Positions 1 to 8,008 of a DNA stretch of 8,008 bases are shown here, piece by piece. Origin of the DNA: a bacterium TMED198 (GTDB lineage: Bacteria; Fidelibacterota; Marinisomatia; SCGC-AAA003-L08; D37C17); contig NHIV01000071.1 of assembly GCA_002170735.1 (NCBI GenBank), positions 1 through 8,008 of the forward strand, written 5' to 3'. Made by a program: the position numbers and the translations under genes. Under the pieces are notes generated by a model. The model searched no databases and was not told where the DNA came from. It worked only from the letters and a program-made list of their open reading frames with translations. Numbering within the stretch: position 1 is the stretch's first letter; each line of letters begins with the position of its first letter.

Positions 1-56
1 CCGTCTTCCTTGAAAGCAACGTGACAATCTATACATCTAACTATATTTTTTGTCAT
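1..56 (-). CDS. Start of a CxxCH-containing protein, cut by the left edge
   Basis: Only the first 18 codons are present: MTKNIVRCIDCHVAFKED, then a Gly codon begins at the edge. I do not recognise the family. The visible feature is C8-I-D-C11-H12, which fits either a c-type haem attachment site or half of a zinc site. The ATG lies two bases after the tgt stop and is preceded by GAAGGT at a good distance. The same frame has a TAA at 65-63, so translation cannot start further upstream and there is no room for a secretion signal. That argues against a periplasmic cytochrome and for a cytoplasmic metal (zinc-ribbon-like) site, but without the rest of the gene this is inference. It is the fourth gene of the minus-strand cluster, translationally coupled to tgt. 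Confidence is good that it is a gene and low for any function. Confidence 0.6.
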   Translation of the reverse strand, partial: MTKNIVRCIDCHVAFKED

Positions 57-58
57 AT

Positions 59-1192
59 CTATTTACCTTCATAGTTGGAAATAAATTCTTTTGACCAATA
101 GCTGAATGTTCCATTGTTTATTTGAGATCTTATTTTTGACATTAAGTCCAGATAGAAACTTAAGTTGTGAAGGGTTGCAATTGTATATCCTAGCATCTCC
201 TCTATCTTAAACAAATGATGTAGATAGCCTTTGGAGTAGTTAAGAGAAAGATCAGATTTAGATTCAATGTCTATTGGGTTTGTATCATTTTTATATTTAG
301 AGTTTCTTATGTTTACTTTTCCATTTCGAGTAAAAAGCTGTCCATTTCTAGCATTCCTTGATGGCATTACGCAGTCAAACATGTCAACTCCTCTTGCAAC
401 AGCTTGAACAAGATCTGTTGGAGTCCCAACGCCCATTAAATATCTAGGTTTTTCTTTTGGAATTATGTCATTAACCACTTCAATTGAATTAAGCATTTCT
501 TCTTTAGGCTCTCCGACCGCTAATCCTCCAATTGCATATAGTGGAGAATCAAGGGCCAGAAGTTCATTAGCAGATTTTATTCTAAGGTCTTTGTTTGTGC
601 CACCTTGAATTATTGGAACAAGTACTTGACTGTGACCATACAGATCTTTAGTTTTATTAAAATGATCCATTCCCCTTTTTGCCCAACGTGTAGTAATGTT
701 AAGTGCTTTCTCCCATGTTTTGAAGTCTGCATCTCCAGGAGGGCATACATCTAGCATCATCATAAAGTCCGATCCTAAAATTCTTTGTGTTTCTACAACA
801 CTTTCAGGGGTAAAAAGATGGCTACTACCATCTAGATGAGATTGGAATGTAACCCCTTCCTCACTAATCTTCCTTTTTCCTCTTAAGCTAAATACTTGAA
901 ATCCACCTGAATCTGTAAGTATCGGTTTTTTCCAATTTATAAATTTATGAAGTCCTCCGTGCTTTGCAATTATTTCATTACCGGGCCTAATATATAGATG
1001 ATACGTATTACCTAAAATTATAGATGATGAGATTTGTTCAAGATTTTTATATGATAAGGTTTTTACAGCACCATATGTTCCAACAGGCATAAATACAGGA
1101 GTATGAATATCTCCGTTGTCAGTTTTAACAACTCCTTCTCTTGCTGATGTATTGCTACATTTTGATAAAATTGTAAAGATAGATTGTTTCAT
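59..1192 (-). CDS. tgt: tRNA-guanine(34) transglycosylase (queuosine synthesis), zinc-site variant
   Basis: This cytoplasmic enzyme swaps guanine-34 of tRNAs with GUN anticodons (Asp, Asn, His, Tyr) for preQ1 during queuosine synthesis. At 377 residues it is normal length for a bacterial Tgt. Visible landmarks, numbered here with Zymomonas mobilis equivalents, are D94 in LTDSGGFQVFSL (D102), D148 and C150 in MMLDVCPP (D156, C158), Q196 in PIIQGG, G222-G-L-A-V226-G (the bacterial preQ1 pocket with V233), and nucleophile D273 in FDCVMPSRNARNG (D280). The oddity is the zinc site. The usual C-x-C-x2-C is S311-K-S313-D-L-S316, while the fourth ligand H342 (H349) remains. All three serines are TCT codons in an otherwise intact frame, so three independent sequencing errors are unlikely. 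Known cysteine-to-serine changes in the E. coli enzyme damage zinc binding and activity. Either this lineage has a zinc-free Tgt or function is impaired. It starts two bases after the amidohydrolase stop, with no clear Shine-Dalgarno, so it is probably coupled. The family call is very secure; full activity is uncertain. Confidence 0.97.
   Translation of the reverse strand: MKQSIFTILSKCSNTSAREGVVKTDNGDIHTPVFMPVGTYGAVKTLSYKNLEQISSSIILGNTYHLYIRPGNEIIAKHGGLHKFINWKKPILTDSGGFQVFSLRGKRKISEEGVTFQSHLDGSSHLFTPESVVETQRILGSDFMMMLDVCPPGDADFKTWEKALNITTRWAKRGMDHFNKTKDLYGHSQVLVPIIQGGTNKDLRIKSANELLALDSPLYAIGGLAVGEPKEEMLNSIEVVNDIIPKEKPRYLMGVGTPTDLVQAVARGVDMFDCVMPSRNARNGQLFTRNGKVNIRNSKYKNDTNPIDIESKSDLSLNYSKGYLHHLFKIEEMLGYTIATLHNLSFYLDLMSKIRSQINNGTFSYWSKEFISNYEGK
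65..70 (-). promoter_or_regulatory. Ribosome binding site for the CxxCH gene, inside the end of tgt
   Basis: On the minus strand GAAGGT lies within the last codons of tgt, eight bases before the ATG at 56-54. It supports that ATG as the start and shows that the downstream gene is translated from within the tgt coding sequence. Confidence 0.45.
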
Positions 1193-1194
1193 AT

Positions 1195-2367
1195 CTAGTT
1201 AACAATTAATAGATCTTCAATTAGCTGAACAAAGGCAGAGCTCCCAATAGCAAGAGCATCTTCATCAATATTGAAGTGTGAGCAGTGATGAGGCACTTCA
1301 AGTGGTTTAGTACCTTTTGGTGCACTGCCAATAAAGAAGAAACATCCTGGAATTTCATTGGCAAAGTAGCTAAAATCTTCTCCACCCATTGTAAGATAAG
1401 GCTCACCTGCTTGGCTCACAACTTTAGAAGCCGAATGAAGCAAGTTCTTAGAACATATATCATCATTAATAACAGGTGGATAGCCATCTTCATAATCGAG
1501 TTCTATCTCTGCCCCAGTAATTTTTTCTATTCCAAGAATGATGTTTTTCATTTTTTGTTTAATCATCTCTCTATTTTTTTCTGTATATGCTCTAGTTGTT
1601 CCCTCAAGTTTAACATGGTCAGCTATAACATTAAAGTTGTGCCCTCCATTAATTTTTCCAACTGTTAAGACAGCGCTTTCTAAAGGGTTTGTACTTCTAC
1701 TAATAATAGTTTGAAGAGAGTTGATAAGCTGAGATGCTGCAAGTATGGTATCATTAGTTCCCTGTGGCATTGCTCCATGGCCACCCTTACCTCTAATATT
1801 AATTTTAAACATATCTGCAGCAGCCATTACAGGCCCAGCTTTAGTGCTAATAGTTCCACACTGCTGGTAGTTCCAGAGATGGGCACCATAAATTTGATTC
1901 ATACCATCTAGAGCATTATCTTTTATCATATATCTGGCGCCACCCTTGCCCTCTTCAGCAGGCTGAAATATGAATCTTACTCTTCCTTTAATCTTTTTCT
2001 TATAATTTGATAAAACCCTTGCTGCTCCTAGAAGCATTGCCGTATGGCCATCATGACCACATGCATGCATAACACCATCGTTGATTGATTTAAATTCAAG
2101 ATTGCTTGTTTCTTGAATTGGGAGCGCATCCATATCTGCCCTTAGTGCAATAGAAGATCCAGATTCATTTCCAACTAGATCAGCTGTCACACCAGTTTTT
2201 CCTACACCAGTTTTAACCTCTAGCCCATAGGATTTAAGCTTATTGGCAACAATTTTTGAAGTTCTAAATTCTTTGAAGCTTAATTCAGGATGTTTGTGGA
2301 AGTCTCTACGATTTTCAATTATATTGCTTTTAATTTTATCTACTTCAGGGTGTATTTTAATAGTCAA
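1195..2367 (-). CDS. M20D-family metal-dependent amidohydrolase (aminoacylase type)
   Basis: This is a predicted cytoplasmic dinuclear-metal hydrolase that cleaves an N-acyl amide bond, releasing an amino acid. The subfamily includes hippurate hydrolase, IAA-amino acid hydrolases and N-acetyldiaminopimelate deacetylase. The 390 residues are standard length. Metal ligands are visible as C103 and H105 in MHACGHDGH, E138-E139 in FQPAEEGKGG, H163 in GAHLW and H361 in PHHCSHFNIDEDAL. The inserted dimerisation or lid domain begins near residue 186 with KINIRGKGGHGAMP and ends near 300. No signal peptide is seen. The start is TTG, two bases after the stop of the upstream gene; no in-frame ATG occurs before residue 79, which lies inside the catalytic domain, so TTG is the sensible choice. 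The substrate cannot be read from sequence. The neighbours (a secreted oxidase and tgt) do not form a known pathway with it, although peptide amidation or acyl-peptide turnover is a speculative link to the PHM-like gene upstream. Confidence 0.93.
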   Translation of the reverse strand: MTIKIHPEVDKIKSNIIENRRDFHKHPELSFKEFRTSKIVANKLKSYGLEVKTGVGKTGVTADLVGNESGSSIALRADMDALPIQETSNLEFKSINDGVMHACGHDGHTAMLLGAARVLSNYKKKIKGRVRFIFQPAEEGKGGARYMIKDNALDGMNQIYGAHLWNYQQCGTISTKAGPVMAAADMFKINIRGKGGHGAMPQGTNDTILAASQLINSLQTIISRSTNPLESAVLTVGKINGGHNFNVIADHVKLEGTTRAYTEKNREMIKQKMKNIILGIEKITGAEIELDYEDGYPPVINDDICSKNLLHSASKVVSQAGEPYLTMGGEDFSYFANEIPGCFFFIGSAPKGTKPLEVPHHCSHFNIDEDALAIGSSAFVQLIEDLLIVN

Positions 2368-2369
2368 AG

Positions 2370-4088
2370 CTACATTCCATATATATATCCAAATACAATC
2401 ATCATTTCATCTTCACTTAAAAATCCAAAATAAAGGTTGTCATTGGTTTCATTGAAGTAAGTTGCGATTGCTCTTAGCTTATGTCCAGGTTCAATAACAA
2501 TAGGGCTGTCATTAAGCTGTAGAATTGGTGGATGCTCCCAGTCAAGAGCAGTGTAAATCAGCTCAGAGGTGCCATCTGGATAAACATGCTCAACATCAAA
2601 GCGAGTCATTCTTCTATGGGCATGGGTAAAGAGTTGAAATATTGCAGCCTTAGAAAAGCCTTGATCAGTTAGATTGCTATTTGCAACTATTTCATTAAAC
2701 GAAAAATCTTTTGTAATTATATGCTCTCCAGGAGGAATTTCAAAGTCTGTATTACCTAGTTGCATTATCTCAGCAACATGGTCTACTTCATCCTCAAGTA
2801 CGGTATGAAGATTTACATATACTTCTCCTTCAATTTGATTGTCAGTGTAGTTTAAGTAATGAGAGTTCATATCAATTCCAAAAGTATTTGGAAGTTTTAA
2901 GGCTACACCTTCAGGCATTGTATAATCCATGTAGGGCCATTGGGTTCCTGTAATAAAAACTTGATAGTTCATCTGAATTAATGTGCTCATATTTGTATTT
3001 CCAAACCCATCGTGTAAATCCCTAAATTCATATGAATTTGGTATTATAACGCTTGGCGTTTGATTTGAGTAGGTATGAAGAATAAAGTGGTGCGATCCCT
3101 CTCTCATGCTAATTTCTACTCTTCTAATATATATGTCATCATCTAGTGGAGGAATATAATAAAATATTTCTCTTTCTTGAAATGTTTCAACATTGAAGGG
3201 GCCCATATGAAGCTGAATACCTTGAGAAGGAGGTTCTAAAATTTCAAAATCAATATATTCGTAAGTATTTATATCTGCTAGAAGGGAAGGGTCCGCTACT
3301 TTTCCAGTTTCAGGAGCACCTTCCCAAATCCATTTTTCAATAAAGTTTAGTTCACCATTTGTTAGGTAAGGTCCTCCCATTGGCATTATTTCTCCATAGT
3401 ATGGGTGTTCAGCTGAAAAGTGTGATTCATTTCTTATATTAATCTTTTCCCAGAAAAAACTTCTAAGAAGTCCAAGTAAACCTCCCTCGTTACTAATTAA
3501 AACCAATCCATCGGCATTAGCAGCATTGTTTGATGGAATTGAATTCAGCATATTATTATATGCCTGACCATCTGTAAGTATTAGACCTGAAAGTTGTGCA
3601 AAATATTCACCAGATACATGGCAACTTGAGCCACATTTTGGAGATAAAATATCGCTGCTAATAATTTCCCAGGTATCTCTGTTATCTTGAGCTTGAAGTA
3701 TTATAGAGACTGTTCCAACAATATCTAAAATATCTATTGTCTGATCAAGGTTAAAGTCAGCGGCTTCAATCTGTTGATCAAGGTAATTAATATTTCCTAA
3801 AACATACTGAACTAATGAAACCACATCTAAAATATTTATTTCTTGATCAAAATTAGTATCACCGATAATAATATTTAGTTCGCAGGTAATTTGACATTCT
3901 TCGTAAAAATTAAATAAACTATCGCCATTGCTGTTACAGCCGGAAATCTGAACGCACACTGATCCGTTCCATCCGTAGCCTAAAGTTGTGGTGCAGTCTC
4001 CATATGAACTTGAATCTACAGCATCACAGTCTTGTGCTAGCATAACTCCAAAGAATAGAGTTAGAATGATGGAAAATTTATTTTTCAT
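2370..4088 (-). CDS. Secreted cytochrome-type / copper type II monooxygenase (PHM/DBH-like) fusion with dockerin-like and Kunitz-like modules
   Basis: Predicted exported copper monooxygenase, 572 residues. Residues 1-18 are a signal peptide (MKNKF, hydrophobic stretch, cleavage probably at MLA|QD). Residues 21-69 hold six cysteines (21, 32, 45, 51, 65, 69) spaced roughly like a Kunitz domain. Residues 76-132 hold two dockerin/EF-hand-like loops, D77-x-N-x-D-x3-N-x2-D88 and D111-x-N-x-D-x3-D-x2-D122. Residues 141-262 resemble c-type cytochrome domains of this lineage: ILSPK-CGSSCH at 152-157, MPMGG at 235-239 as the usual axial-Met region, and WIWEGAPETG at the end. The spacing between cysteines is three, not two. 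Residues about 279-572 match the peptidylglycine/dopamine monooxygenase fold by ligands: H333-H334 (GSHHFILH) and H410 (MNSHYLN) for copper H, H489-x-H491 (FTHAHRRM) and M562 (SEDEMMIVFGYIY) for copper M. Such enzymes hydroxylate C-H bonds with O2 and two electrons; the haem domain could supply them. The substrate is unknown. The protein ends at the fold, with no sorting domain. It is the first gene of the minus-strand cluster, with no strong Shine-Dalgarno. Confidence 0.88.
   Translation of the reverse strand: MKNKFSIILTLFFGVMLAQDCDAVDSSSYGDCTTTLGYGWNGSVCVQISGCNSNGDSLFNFYEECQITCELNIIIGDTNFDQEINILDVVSLVQYVLGNINYLDQQIEAADFNLDQTIDILDIVGTVSIILQAQDNRDTWEIISSDILSPKCGSSCHVSGEYFAQLSGLILTDGQAYNNMLNSIPSNNAANADGLVLISNEGGLLGLLRSFFWEKINIRNESHFSAEHPYYGEIMPMGGPYLTNGELNFIEKWIWEGAPETGKVADPSLLADINTYEYIDFEILEPPSQGIQLHMGPFNVETFQEREIFYYIPPLDDDIYIRRVEISMREGSHHFILHTYSNQTPSVIIPNSYEFRDLHDGFGNTNMSTLIQMNYQVFITGTQWPYMDYTMPEGVALKLPNTFGIDMNSHYLNYTDNQIEGEVYVNLHTVLEDEVDHVAEIMQLGNTDFEIPPGEHIITKDFSFNEIVANSNLTDQGFSKAAIFQLFTHAHRRMTRFDVEHVYPDGTSELIYTALDWEHPPILQLNDSPIVIEPGHKLRAIATYFNETNDNLYFGFLSEDEMMIVFGYIYGM
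3721..3758 (-). repeat. Dockerin-loop repeat, copy 2 (degenerate direct repeat)
   Basis: This encodes the second calcium-loop-like segment, D111-FNLDQTIDILD-I. By my own alignment it matches the copy at 3823-3860 at 28 of 38 bases without gaps, including shared runs ATCTAAAATAT and TGATCAA. It looks like an old internal duplication that produced the paired loops. Confidence 0.7.
3823..3860 (-). repeat. Dockerin-loop repeat, copy 1 (degenerate direct repeat)
   Basis: This encodes the first calcium-loop-like segment, D77-TNFDQEINILD-V, and pairs with the copy at 3721-3758. Acidic or amide residues at loop positions 1, 3, 5, 9 and 12 are kept in both copies, as expected for calcium binding. Confidence 0.7.
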
Positions 4089-4165: not shown

Positions 4166-4996
4166 ATGCACATTGCTTGGAAATCAATAAAAAGTTTTAC
4201 TGATATTATGTACGAACAAGGTCTTGATGCAGCTGAAGGCGTTGCTAAAATTACAATTAATAGACCTAAGGTTAGAAATGCGTTTAGGCCTCAGACAGTT
4301 TTTGAGCTCAAGGAGGCATTTGAAGATGCTAGAGAAAGGTCGGATATAGGGGTCGTTATTTTGACTGGTAAGGGAGAAGAGGCATTCTGCTCTGGAGGTG
4401 ATCAAAAAGTTCGTGGAGATGCAGGCTATGTTGGTGAGGATGGAATACCAAGGCTAAATATTCTTGACGTTCAAAAACAAATAAGGAATCTTCCTAAGCC
4501 TGTAATTGCAATGGTTGCAGGGTATGCTGTTGGCGGAGGCCATGTACTTCATATGCTTTGTGACCTAACCATTGCTTCAGATAATGCTCAATTCGGTCAA
4601 ACTGGACCAAAAGTTGGATCTTTTGATGGTGGTTGGGGCTCATCCTATATGGCTAGAATCATAGGACAGAAGAGAGCTAGAGAAATTTGGTACCTATGTA
4701 GGTTCTATAGTGCAAAACAGGCTCTTGAATGGGGATTAATAAATGCAGTTGTTCCATATAAAGATTTAGAAAAAGAAACCATTACGTGGTCAAGAGAGAT
4801 TCTAGAAAAATCACCAACAGCTATCAGACTACTTAAGGCTGCAATGAATGCTGATTGTGATGGGCAGTCTGGTCTACAACAGCTTGCTGGAGATGCCACC
4901 ATGCTATTCTATATGACAGAAGAAGCTAAAGAGGGAAGAGAGGCATTTAAAGAAAAAAGGTCTCCAAACTTTAAGAAGTTTAAAAGACTCCCGTAG
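4166..4996 (+). CDS. menB: 1,4-dihydroxy-2-naphthoyl-CoA synthase
   Basis: MenB is a crotonase-fold enzyme that closes the second ring of the naphthoquinone nucleus, converting o-succinylbenzoyl-CoA to 1,4-dihydroxy-2-naphthoyl-CoA in the cytoplasm. The 276 residues match the family closely from end to end: [12 protein letters not shown] at 31-42, [10 protein letters not shown] at 75-84, the oxyanion-hole glycines GGG at 123-125, [13 protein letters not shown] at 144-156, and the C-terminal [14 protein letters not shown]. Catalytic S152, D154 and Y249 correspond to S161, D163 and Y258 of E. coli MenB. G147 corresponds to G156, the mark of the bicarbonate-dependent type. It has a strong ribosome binding site, is first in the plus-strand men cluster, and its TAG stop abuts the menA ATG. 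The assignment is not in doubt; ordinary enoyl-CoA hydratases lack these MenB signatures. Confidence 0.98.
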
Positions 4997-5866
4997 ATGT
5001 TGGTTTGGATTCAAGCTGCAAGAATTAAAACTCTTTATGCTTCTTTATCTCCGGTAATGGTAGGTGTTGCATTAGCTGCCAACCAAGGATCTATAAACGT
5101 TTTAGTTTTTATCTGTACTTTGATTGCGGCTGTATTCATTCAAGTTGGCACAAACCTAGCAAATGATTATTATGATTACAAAAATGGTGTAGATAATAAA
5201 AATAGACTTGGCCCTGACAGGGTAACCCAAAAAGGACTATTGCAACCTAATCAAGTAAAAAATGGAATGATTTTTTCGTTTATCATAGCTCTAATTTTTG
5301 GATTTTATCTATCTTTTGTTGGGGGATGGCCAATTGTATTAATTGGGATTGTGTCAATCTTATCTGGAGTACTTTATACAGGTGGAAGTAAGCCATATGG
5401 ATATATAGGTTTAGGAGATATTTTTGTTTTTATTTTTTTTGGTGTAATAGCAGTTCCAGGCACTTACTATCTTCAAACAAACTTAATTTCAATTCCTTCA
5501 ATACTTTGCGGATTATCTTGTGGAGCATTGTCAACATCATTAATTGTTGTTAATAATTTAAGAGATATGGATAATGATAGAGAATCTGGGAAAATGACCT
5601 TAGCCGTTAAGTTAGGATCAAGATTTGCATGCTGGGAATATGCTATAATGAATGCAATAGCATATATTATTATTTTAGTTTTAATTTTAATTTTTGATTT
5701 TGGAATGGGCTTGTATTTAGTACTTTTATTGATGCCACTTTCATATAATTTATCAAGAACAATATTTTCTAAAAGAGGTTCAGACTTAAATCAGTTTATA
5801 GGCCTTACAGCAAGACATTCTATTCTTCATTTCACATTGCTCTCTTTGATGCTTATCATTCAATGA
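4997..5866 (+). CDS. menA: 1,4-dihydroxy-2-naphthoate polyprenyltransferase
   Basis: MenA is an inner-membrane UbiA-family enzyme that joins a polyprenyl diphosphate tail to 1,4-dihydroxy-2-naphthoate, giving demethylmenaquinone. The 289 residues are typical. The two aspartate-rich, Mg-diphosphate-binding motifs are present: N56-D-YYD60-YKNGVD66 and N187-LRDMDND194-RESGKMTLAVKLG. GPDRVTQKGLLQP at 72-84 is also characteristic of MenA. About eight or nine hydrophobic spans can be picked out, for example near 33-50, 92-108, 112-128, 141-157, 168-185, 218-233 and 237-252. The ATG immediately follows the menB stop with no spacing and no good Shine-Dalgarno, so translation is probably coupled. The end overlaps menC by four bases (ATGA). 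The men context separates it from other UbiA prenyltransferases. Confidence 0.96.
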   Translation: MLVWIQAARIKTLYASLSPVMVGVALAANQGSINVLVFICTLIAAVFIQVGTNLANDYYDYKNGVDNKNRLGPDRVTQKGLLQPNQVKNGMIFSFIIALIFGFYLSFVGGWPIVLIGIVSILSGVLYTGGSKPYGYIGLGDIFVFIFFGVIAVPGTYYLQTNLISIPSILCGLSCGALSTSLIVVNNLRDMDNDRESGKMTLAVKLGSRFACWEYAIMNAIAYIIILVLILIFDFGMGLYLVLLLMPLSYNLSRTIFSKRGSDLNQFIGLTARHSILHFTLLSLMLIIQ

Positions 5867-6909
5867 ATATTAAAATTTTTAGATTTTCAATTCCATTTAG
5901 GAGTAATTTAATTATAAATAACATTGATCTTGAAAATAGACAAGGAATTATTGTTTCAGTTTCATGTATGGGGCAAACTGGTTTTGGAGAAGCTTCTCCT
6001 TTAGAATCATTTAGTAAAGAAACATTGTCTGATGTACTCTGGGCGCTTGAAGGCCTGATTGTGGCTGTAGATAATTGCTCAATTGGTGAGGCAAGAGAGC
6101 TGGCGAAGCTACATCTTAGTAGTGCTCCATCAGCAGCGTTTGCATTTGACACTGCTCTTTATGATCTAGAAGCAAAAATTAATAATAAGGCCTTGCGTTA
6201 TTTTATTAATGCTGAAGCTTTAGAGTATATAAGCGTAAATGCACTGATTGATGAAGATCTGTCATTATCAAATAAAACATTCAAAGTTAAATTATCTGAA
6301 AAGAACATTTTTTCTCTTGTTGAAAAGATTGAAGTAATGTGCGGAAAAATAAAAAATGATAGCAAGCTACGAATTGATTTCAATGGAGGTTTAGATCTTT
6401 CTAGATCAATTAGGCTCGTAAAAGAGATTAAGCATCTCAAAGATAAAATAGAATATCTTGAACAACCCCTTTTTAACGATCAGTTTTGTATTGAAGACAC
6501 TTCTGAGCTTAGGCTTCACTCAGATATACCCATAGCTCTTGATGAGACTGCTTCTAGCTTTGAATCAATTCAAAAGATCGTTAATTACAATGCTGCTGAT
6601 GCAGTAATTATAAAACCTATGCAGTGTGGCTTTTTTTCAGAAATATTTAGTATAAAAAGGTTGTTGGATGATTCAGGAATTAAAATTATTTTTTCAAGTA
6701 TGTATGATGGTCCAGTTGCCTTTCAAGCATCTCTTAACTTAGCTAGTGCACTGCAAATAGATAGTTGCTGTGGATATGATACAATCAAATTATTTAAAGA
6801 TAAAAATCTGTTTGCTGTAAAAATTAATAATGGATTAATTGAGATGAATTCTGACATTGGTCTAGGGATAGATTTGAATTATATCAAGGAGTATGTATTT
6901 CATGATTAA
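5863..6909 (+). CDS. menC: o-Succinylbenzoate synthase
   Basis: MenC is a cytoplasmic enolase-superfamily enzyme that dehydrates SHCHC to o-succinylbenzoate, the substrate of the next gene's product. The 348 residues carry a capping domain (about 1-115) and a barrel. The catalytic set is complete: K141-V-K143 (FKVKLS), metal ligands D172 (RIDFNG), E200 (EYLEQP) and D227 (ALDET), and the opposite-face base K251 (IIKP). E. coli equivalents are K131, K133, D161, E190, D213 and K235. Sequence outside these motifs is diverged, as is usual for MenC, so some tools may label it only as a mandelate racemase or muconate lactonizing enzyme family member, but its position between menA and menE settles the role. 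The start ATG overlaps the menA TGA as ATGA. The 3' end overlaps menE by eight bases and contains the menE ribosome binding site. Confidence 0.95.
   Translation: MNIKIFRFSIPFRSNLIINNIDLENRQGIIVSVSCMGQTGFGEASPLESFSKETLSDVLWALEGLIVAVDNCSIGEARELAKLHLSSAPSAAFAFDTALYDLEAKINNKALRYFINAEALEYISVNALIDEDLSLSNKTFKVKLSEKNIFSLVEKIEVMCGKIKNDSKLRIDFNGGLDLSRSIRLVKEIKHLKDKIEYLEQPLFNDQFCIEDTSELRLHSDIPIALDETASSFESIQKIVNYNAADAVIIKPMQCGFFSEIFSIKRLLDDSGIKIIFSSMYDGPVAFQASLNLASALQIDSCCGYDTIKLFKDKNLFAVKINNGLIEMNSDIGLGIDLNYIKEYVFHD
6886..6891 (+). promoter_or_regulatory. Shine-Dalgarno of menE, inside menC
   Basis: AAGGAG lies ten bases before the ATG at 6902. A second in-frame ATG at 6893 is only one base away from this site, too close for ribosome binding, so 6902 is the preferred start. 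Confidence 0.55.
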
Positions 6910-8008
6910 AAATTGGCTGTATTATCAATATAGAAATAATCCAAAATCATACTTTTTAATTGAAAATAATAATAAGTTTTCCTTTGAAAGCTTTTACTTT
7001 TTAGTCGTTGATTTAGCAAAGTCATTAGATTATAATGGCTTAAGAAAAAATCAAATAGTTCTAATTCTTTTAACTGATCCAGTATCTTCATTGCAATGTT
7101 TTTTTAGTTGCCAACAACTGGGGGCTATACCTGTTCTTGTAGATTCTGGTAAGTCATCTTTGGAGTTAGATGGAGTAATAGAATCTTTATCTCCAGATTT
7201 AATTATAACTTCATGGAGCAATAAAATCAATAGTAAAGAGGTAGTTTTTTTTGAAGAAATAATGAGTGTCAAATCAGGCTGTAGGGCGTTGAAAATAATT
7301 GAAAAATATAGTGTCGATGATGTTTGTTGCATTTTATGTACTACAGGAACTACAGGTATTGCAAAGTTAGTTAGATTGAGCTATGGAAATTTCTATAGCA
7401 GCTTTATTAGTTGGAATAATGAAATAAATTTTAAGTCTGAAGATAGATATTTGTGTTGTATTCCCCTTTATCATATTGGAGGAATATCTATAGTTATGAG
7501 GTCACTGTTTGCTGGTTTTAGTGTAGACTTGTGTCTGCCTTTTAAAGCTAAAGGAGTTCTTAATAAATTAAATAAATCAGTTAACTACATTTCGTTAGTT
7601 CCAACAATGCTTAGTAAACTATTAGATGAAGGAGACATTAGTAGCCATAGTCTCAATGCCATAATAGTTGGAGGCTCCAATATTCCTAATGAGCTTTTAA
7701 AAAAAATTATAGATTATAAATTACCAGTATTTAAAACCTATGGAATGACGGAATCTTCATCAGGCATTGCTGGATTTTTTATAAATAAATTTTTGGAAAA
7801 AAAAGACTCTTCAGGTAAGATATTTAAAAATGTAGAAGTTAAGGTGAAGGGTGGCACAATCTCTATATCTGGCCCAATGGTAATGAGGGGTTATTTTAAT
7901 CAAAATTTATCTAAAGCAATTTTTCATACAGATGATATTGGTAGCATAGATTCAGATGGTTACATTACTGTAAATGGTCGTAAAGATAGAACTATTTTAT
8001 CTGGAGGT
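6902..8008 (+). CDS. menE: o-Succinylbenzoate-CoA ligase, 3' end cut by the window
   Basis: MenE activates o-succinylbenzoate with ATP and CoA, giving the substrate of MenB. The frame stays open for 369 codons to the right edge and shows the ANL adenylating-enzyme motifs in order: the phosphate loop T147-TGTTGIAK155, PLYHIGG at 188-194 (typical of MenE), Y280-GMTE, H342-TDD and the hinge G359-RKDRTILSGG. The small C-terminal domain with the second catalytic lysine lies beyond the edge. The proline common in the phosphate loop (TTGxPKG) is A154, the following glycine is leucine (K155-L), and the usual TGD is TDD, so the enzyme is somewhat diverged although the lysine and key acidic residues remain. 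The start at 6902 overlaps menC by eight bases and is chosen from the ribosome binding site spacing; ATG 6893 would add three residues. Context makes MenE far more likely than another acyl-CoA ligase. Confidence 0.93.
   Translation, partial: MIKNWLYYQYRNNPKSYFLIENNNKFSFESFYFLVVDLAKSLDYNGLRKNQIVLILLTDPVSSLQCFFSCQQLGAIPVLVDSGKSSLELDGVIESLSPDLIITSWSNKINSKEVVFFEEIMSVKSGCRALKIIEKYSVDDVCCILCTTGTTGIAKLVRLSYGNFYSSFISWNNEINFKSEDRYLCCIPLYHIGGISIVMRSLFAGFSVDLCLPFKAKGVLNKLNKSVNYISLVPTMLSKLLDEGDISSHSLNAIIVGGSNIPNELLKKIIDYKLPVFKTYGMTESSSGIAGFFINKFLEKKDSSGKIFKNVEVKVKGGTISISGPMVMRGYFNQNLSKAIFHTDDIGSIDSDGYITVNGRKDRTILSGG

Follow-up and report, generated by a model that had tools for sequence, protein, structure and literature searches.

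A bacterial tRNA-guanine transglycosylase with serines in place of its zinc cysteines, which probably works without the metal

Can the enzyme that inserts the queuosine precursor into tRNA do without the zinc that its family is known for? The question is raised by an 8,008-nucleotide stretch of contig NHIV01000071.1 (the window, here meaning that whole stretch), from the Fidelibacterota draft genome bacterium TMED198, which encodes on its minus strand a 377-residue tRNA-guanine(34) transglycosylase (Tgt; 59..1192) lacking the zinc cysteines. The protein is a full bacterial Tgt by profile, scoring 485.3 bits against the bacterial equivalog TIGR00430 (cut-off 306.75) and 497.2 bits against PF01702 (cut-off 26.3), whilst its match to the archaeal TgtA profile TIGR00432 reached 135.1 bits, below the curated cut-off of 350 bits. 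An AlphaFold2 model of the chain (predicted local distance difference test score, pLDDT, 91.3) showed the predicted TGT barrel fold.

Zinc-bearing TGTs hold the metal with a Cys-Cys-Cys-His set, for which the window Tgt offers S311, S313, S316 and H342. The segment S311-K-S313-D-L-S316 (245..262, minus strand) stands where CxCxxC is expected, as seen among its relatives and in the alignment of DIESKSDLS to DPECDCYTC of the solved PDB chain 10fb, and codons 311 (262-260), 313 (256-254) and 316 (247-245) are all TCT. The fourth ligand position is retained as H342 (codon CAC, 167..169), as are the catalytic D94 (911..913), the substrate-pocket residues D148 (749-751) and C150 (743-745) within 743..751, and D273 at the nucleophile position (374..376), all on the minus strand. 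A sequence-only reading of the window had proposed exactly this combination of serines and retained residues, together with a constant +7 spacing to C318, C320, C323 and H349 of Zymomonas mobilis Tgt, and the alignments bear out both; its interval of 227-262 does contain the motif, the six residues themselves occupying 245-262 alone and the remainder spanning codons 317-322. The same +7 offset, with conservation, places Y319, Y323 and H326 (215..238, minus strand) at the positions of Trp326, Tyr330 and His333 of Z. mobilis, for which a role in the dimer interface is described (PMC5395182).

Ligand loss and its clade-wide spread, the retained residues of catalysis and of the dimer interface, purifying selection, and the presence of QueA and QueF make it probable, in our view, that this enzyme, free of zinc, reaches its fold, forms dimers and replaces guanine 34 by preQ1. 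The gene is not an artefact of one assembly: proteins of 87-88% identity from other sources (P0002 and P0003) read ESKSDLS and ESRSSLS, and together with the 120 listed homologs these rule out a sequencing error or single-strain oddity. Within the best 120 of 7,999 scored homologs all three cysteines are missing in 116, the other four keeping the second alone; the first and third occur nowhere in the set, with Ser (115) or Tyr (5) in place of the third, and the catalytic residues are intact in all 120. Two of these homologs at 63-66% identity (P0005 and P0070) carry the source name Marinimicrobia. A second, zinc-bearing Tgt in the same genome was considered and rejected, as the draft (1.14 Mb, 66% complete) has a single TGT-family match, the zinc-less one.

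The spread of the broken site proved far wider than one lineage. A Tgt match was found in 56 of 60 near genomes (the window's own included) and in 219 of the 245 genomes searched of the phylum, from which 91 Tgts were read, picked to cover its families (numbered with f; f16, f22, f24, f25 and f31 unread): 46 have the complete Cys-Cys-Cys-His set and 45 do not. In the window's clade (C2) all rows read from f1, f2, f3 and f5 have the site broken, so that the loss, which the sequence-only reading had proposed to look for in related genomes, recurs across them, whilst family f4, of the same order, retains the four ligands in 11 of 11. A further clade (C3; f6, f13, f14 and f20) has zinc-less Tgts in which the His position is lost as well, and one f30 Tgt (L160) is also zinc-less; most f30 and f31 genomes gave two or three Tgt matches. 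Outside the phylum, a scan of named genomes gave at least 80 loci among the matches listed, which are no census: 79 from Bacteroidota or Balneolota, in which the full ligand set occurs in none and a single cysteine is left in some, and one from Calditrichota (L083), which is zinc-bearing. Twelve records sampled from a plasmid collection (of 70 matching, 40 listed) comprised eight with the full set (Bacillota 2, Fusobacteriota 1, Pseudomonadota 4, Actinomycetota 1) and four without it, from Prevotella, Bacteroides finegoldii, Methylobacterium bullatum and Sinorhizobium meliloti; separately, Tgt-like genes, 30-34% identical to the window's, occur on enterobacterial plasmids (H30-H36, H38, H39). 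With the S. meliloti protein as query, the best 120 Tgts (86-99% identity; where named, mainly Sinorhizobium, Ensifer and Shinella) all keep only the second cysteine, with Asn or Ser at the His position and the catalytic residues in place. The idea of a lineage-specific zinc-free Tgt thus holds for its zinc-free part and is too narrow as to lineage, as it extends to a further clade of the phylum, to Bacteroidota and Balneolota and to Hyphomicrobiales. As three groups beyond the window's clade have lost at least two of the three cysteines yet retain the catalytic residues, their enzymes likely function without the metal too.

These absences do not go back to one event. A quick tree of 119 Tgts, with the zinc columns excluded, required at least three changes of zinc-site state, and forcing all its zinc-less members into one clade was rejected (p 0.0004); constraining C2 and C3 together gave p 0.0115, an optimistic value since both clades were named after viewing the tree. 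A second quick tree of 116 Tgts, in which rhizobia and further phyla were included and 15 near-duplicates of the first tree (and L399 and L400) were not, required at least four. We infer that the changes were probably losses rather than gains, because the cysteines are there in the Tgts sampled from other phyla and in the solved Escherichia coli chain. The zinc-less f30 Tgt groups with Bacteroidota in the 119-row tree, a placement that we read as gene transfer.

Loss of a ligand set may instead mark a protein that is losing its function, as the sequence-only reading had suggested, or one that has turned into a partner or binding protein. The lost site is described as required for TGT activity (PMC9508795), and four of the 60 relatives gave no Tgt match, some of them retaining QueA; these four are, however, drafts of 58-91% completeness. 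The ratio of nonsynonymous to synonymous substitutions (dN/dS) was 0.036-0.087 in all ten zinc-less Tgt pairs, against 0.146 and 0.476 in two zinc-bearing control pairs (the latter at a dS of just 0.04), the 120 near homologs keep every catalytic residue, and both QueA and QueF are present in the window's genome. The substrate of QueA is made by Tgt alone. Given the low dN/dS in ten pairs and the presence of these two genes, the window Tgt is, as judged from its sequence, not decaying, and we regard loss or change of function as very improbable. Published genetics of S. meliloti, in which tgt is placed downstream of preQ1, also bears on whether a Tgt of this kind is active. QueG was found in 48 of the 60 near genomes; five f6 genomes of 0.8-1.0 Mb (G041, G045, G047, G051 and G055) have QueA in all five and a QueG match in none. 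Bacteroidetes are predicted to be mainly salvagers of queuosine (PMC10570037), a route that would still require Tgt.

A working enzyme could also still bind a metal through other ligands, namely H342 and nearby acidic or histidine residues, as an Asp-His pair in Bacteroidota and as H325 with H342 in the window Tgt. In keeping with this, His is kept at 342 in 94 of the 120 near homologs and at the corresponding position in all 79 listed Bacteroidota and Balneolota loci, 71 of which have Asp at the third position, and His occurs at 325 in 27 of 28 Tgts of the window's clade vs. 8% of zinc Tgts. The fourth position is nevertheless Gln (18), Tyr (7) or Asn (1) in the other 26 near homologs, Leu, Ile or Thr in 20 of 20 C3 rows and Asn or Ser in 120 of 120 listed rhizobial Tgts, and no column in the three zinc-less groups examined has gained a conserved cysteine. 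With His 325, commoner in the window's clade, as the sole candidate, a search for replacement ligands gave none that we could accept, and continued metal binding seems to us quite improbable.

If the site is empty, the loop that carries S316, at the third ligand position, would directly contact the helix that carries H342, at the fourth, and I338 (179..181, minus strand), one helical turn ahead of H342 and replaced by Leu or Met in those Tgts read from the phylum that bear zinc, perhaps assists this contact; column 338 had the top score over all columns and splits (0.83). K321 (230..232, minus strand), where 39 of the 46 zinc-bearing Tgts read from the phylum have Arg, was the sole column to converge by majority rule at thresholds of 0.5 or 0.6, with none at 0.7.

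Several points weigh against a zinc-free, working enzyme held in this manner. AlphaFold2 is blind to metal, a split unrelated to zinc reaches 0.81 at column 257, so that the support for repacking is modest, and the rhizobial Tgts retain Leu at 338. Of the queuosine genes that the sequence-only reading had proposed to look for, QueA and QueF are present in the window's genome, and QueG gave no match in this 66%-complete draft. In print, zinc is needed for TGT activity (PMC9508795). The published S. meliloti work is genetic and on strain 1021, and neither HPLC (high-performance liquid chromatography) nor zinc nor an analysis of tRNA occurs in the available text of that paper; moreover the S. meliloti Tgt keeps one cysteine, is a separate loss from that of the window and was read without the strain 1021 sequence being singled out. 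Partial complementation of an E. coli queDF tgt mutant by Bartonella henselae TGT (PMC11570991) is not counted as support.

Why the site was lost is a separate matter. Adaptation to zinc-poor seawater, proposed from the window's sequence, fails as a general cause because zinc-less Tgts also occur in gut, rumen and soil bacteria, namely rumen and gut Prevotellaceae, Pedobacter and rhizobia. A wider zinc-saving programme, in which zinc-short lineages shed dispensable sites, Tgt first and ribosomal protein L31 later, would be compatible with a zinc-free working Tgt. Across the phylum, where both data exist for 76 of 85 L31 genomes, a zinc-free L31 occurs in 30 of 42 genomes with a zinc-less Tgt vs. 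1 of 34 with a zinc-bearing one; the window genome's own L31 (L240) is zinc-free, as it is in 29 of 29 tested Bacteroidota and Balneolota genomes, giving 59 of 71 vs. 2 of 35 overall. Those two of 35 are G123 (f8) and the Calditrichota genome of L083. Protein L33 follows suit (zinc-free in 14 of 15 genomes with a zinc-less Tgt vs. 5 of 11; G006, with its Tgt site unread, excluded). On the tree, however, the L31 comparison comes down to two independent contrasts (sign test p 0.5 at best), and the Calditrichota genome of L083 combines a zinc-bearing Tgt with a zinc-free L31. Other zinc sites have mostly stayed. Every one of the 30 pattern-matched RecR loci has the zinc finger, and among five more the finger is clear in three, contains an unread base in another and lacks its first cysteine in the last (L249, genome G003); of 30 L36 loci, 27 are of the zinc type, one (f6) is zinc-free and two were read in part. 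With too few independent contrasts, the L31 association is insufficient to prove zinc saving; a wider zinc-saving cause for the loss is possible, though we lean somewhat against such a programme.

As the tree suggests that the zinc site was broken at least four times, zinc in the Tgt family would be a replaceable support outside its chemistry. The broadest account, that zinc was an ancestral prop lost at least four times, Bacteroidota and rhizobia among others, with a different loop-helix lock (Asp-His, Ser-His/Gln, Gly-Leu, Thr-Asn) in its stead at each loss, and as an early zinc-saving step before L31, is put forward tentatively and is in our view unlikely to hold in full. Were it true, a large part of the bacteria would make queuosine with a metal-free transglycosylase. 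If whole groups have Tgts without the zinc domain, the metal is a support that can be replaced, and what has been stated about the need of queuosine synthesis for it does not apply to these groups. In that case Tgt would offer a natural experiment on the shedding of a structural metal, with several independent losses, with zinc-bearing controls in the same order (f4) and with S. meliloti, for which tgt mutants are published.

The window holds other genes besides tgt. Directly downstream, 1-58 (minus strand) holds the start of an open reading frame reading MTKNIVRCIDCHVAFKED, with a CxxCH heme-binding motif, and two bases upstream lies an M20 amidohydrolase, a member of a metallopeptidase family (1195-2367, minus strand). 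Beyond it a 572-residue open reading frame (2370-4088, minus strand) combines a type I dockerin domain with a match, below threshold, to the C-terminal domain of copper type II monooxygenases, followed on the plus strand by the consecutive menaquinone genes menB, menA, menC and menE (4166-8008), menE being open at the window end.

We recognised no description of a zinc-less Tgt in the open-access literature as far as its text was available, subscription papers and database annotation rules being outside this scope, nor a zinc passage in the available part of PMC13416341, nor any of the terms looked for in PMC10197588, and identified none among solved structures, where 55 distinct chains matched and the alignments of two were read; the zinc domain is instead counted, with one other feature, as a hallmark of TGTs (PMC6165067). 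The window Tgt resembles the bacterial enzymes of Z. mobilis and E. coli in its full-length profile match, predicted fold, catalytic residues, interface positions Y323 and H326 and the QueA and QueF of its genome, and differs from them in having Ser-Ser-Ser-His for Cys-Cys-Cys-His, with some near homologs lacking the His as well. It is unlike human QTRT1, the catalytic subunit of the eukaryotic TGT (chain 7nq4_A), in which the zinc domain is present (PMC6165067) and which uses queuine. Parallels are L31 without CxxC and, from the literature, FolE2 and QueD2, where a zinc protein has likewise given way to, or become, a version that lacks the usual zinc site. FolE2 and the Zur-controlled QueD2 of queuosine synthesis are, however, described as second genes tied to low zinc, whereas the zinc-less Tgt of the window is the sole match in its draft genome.
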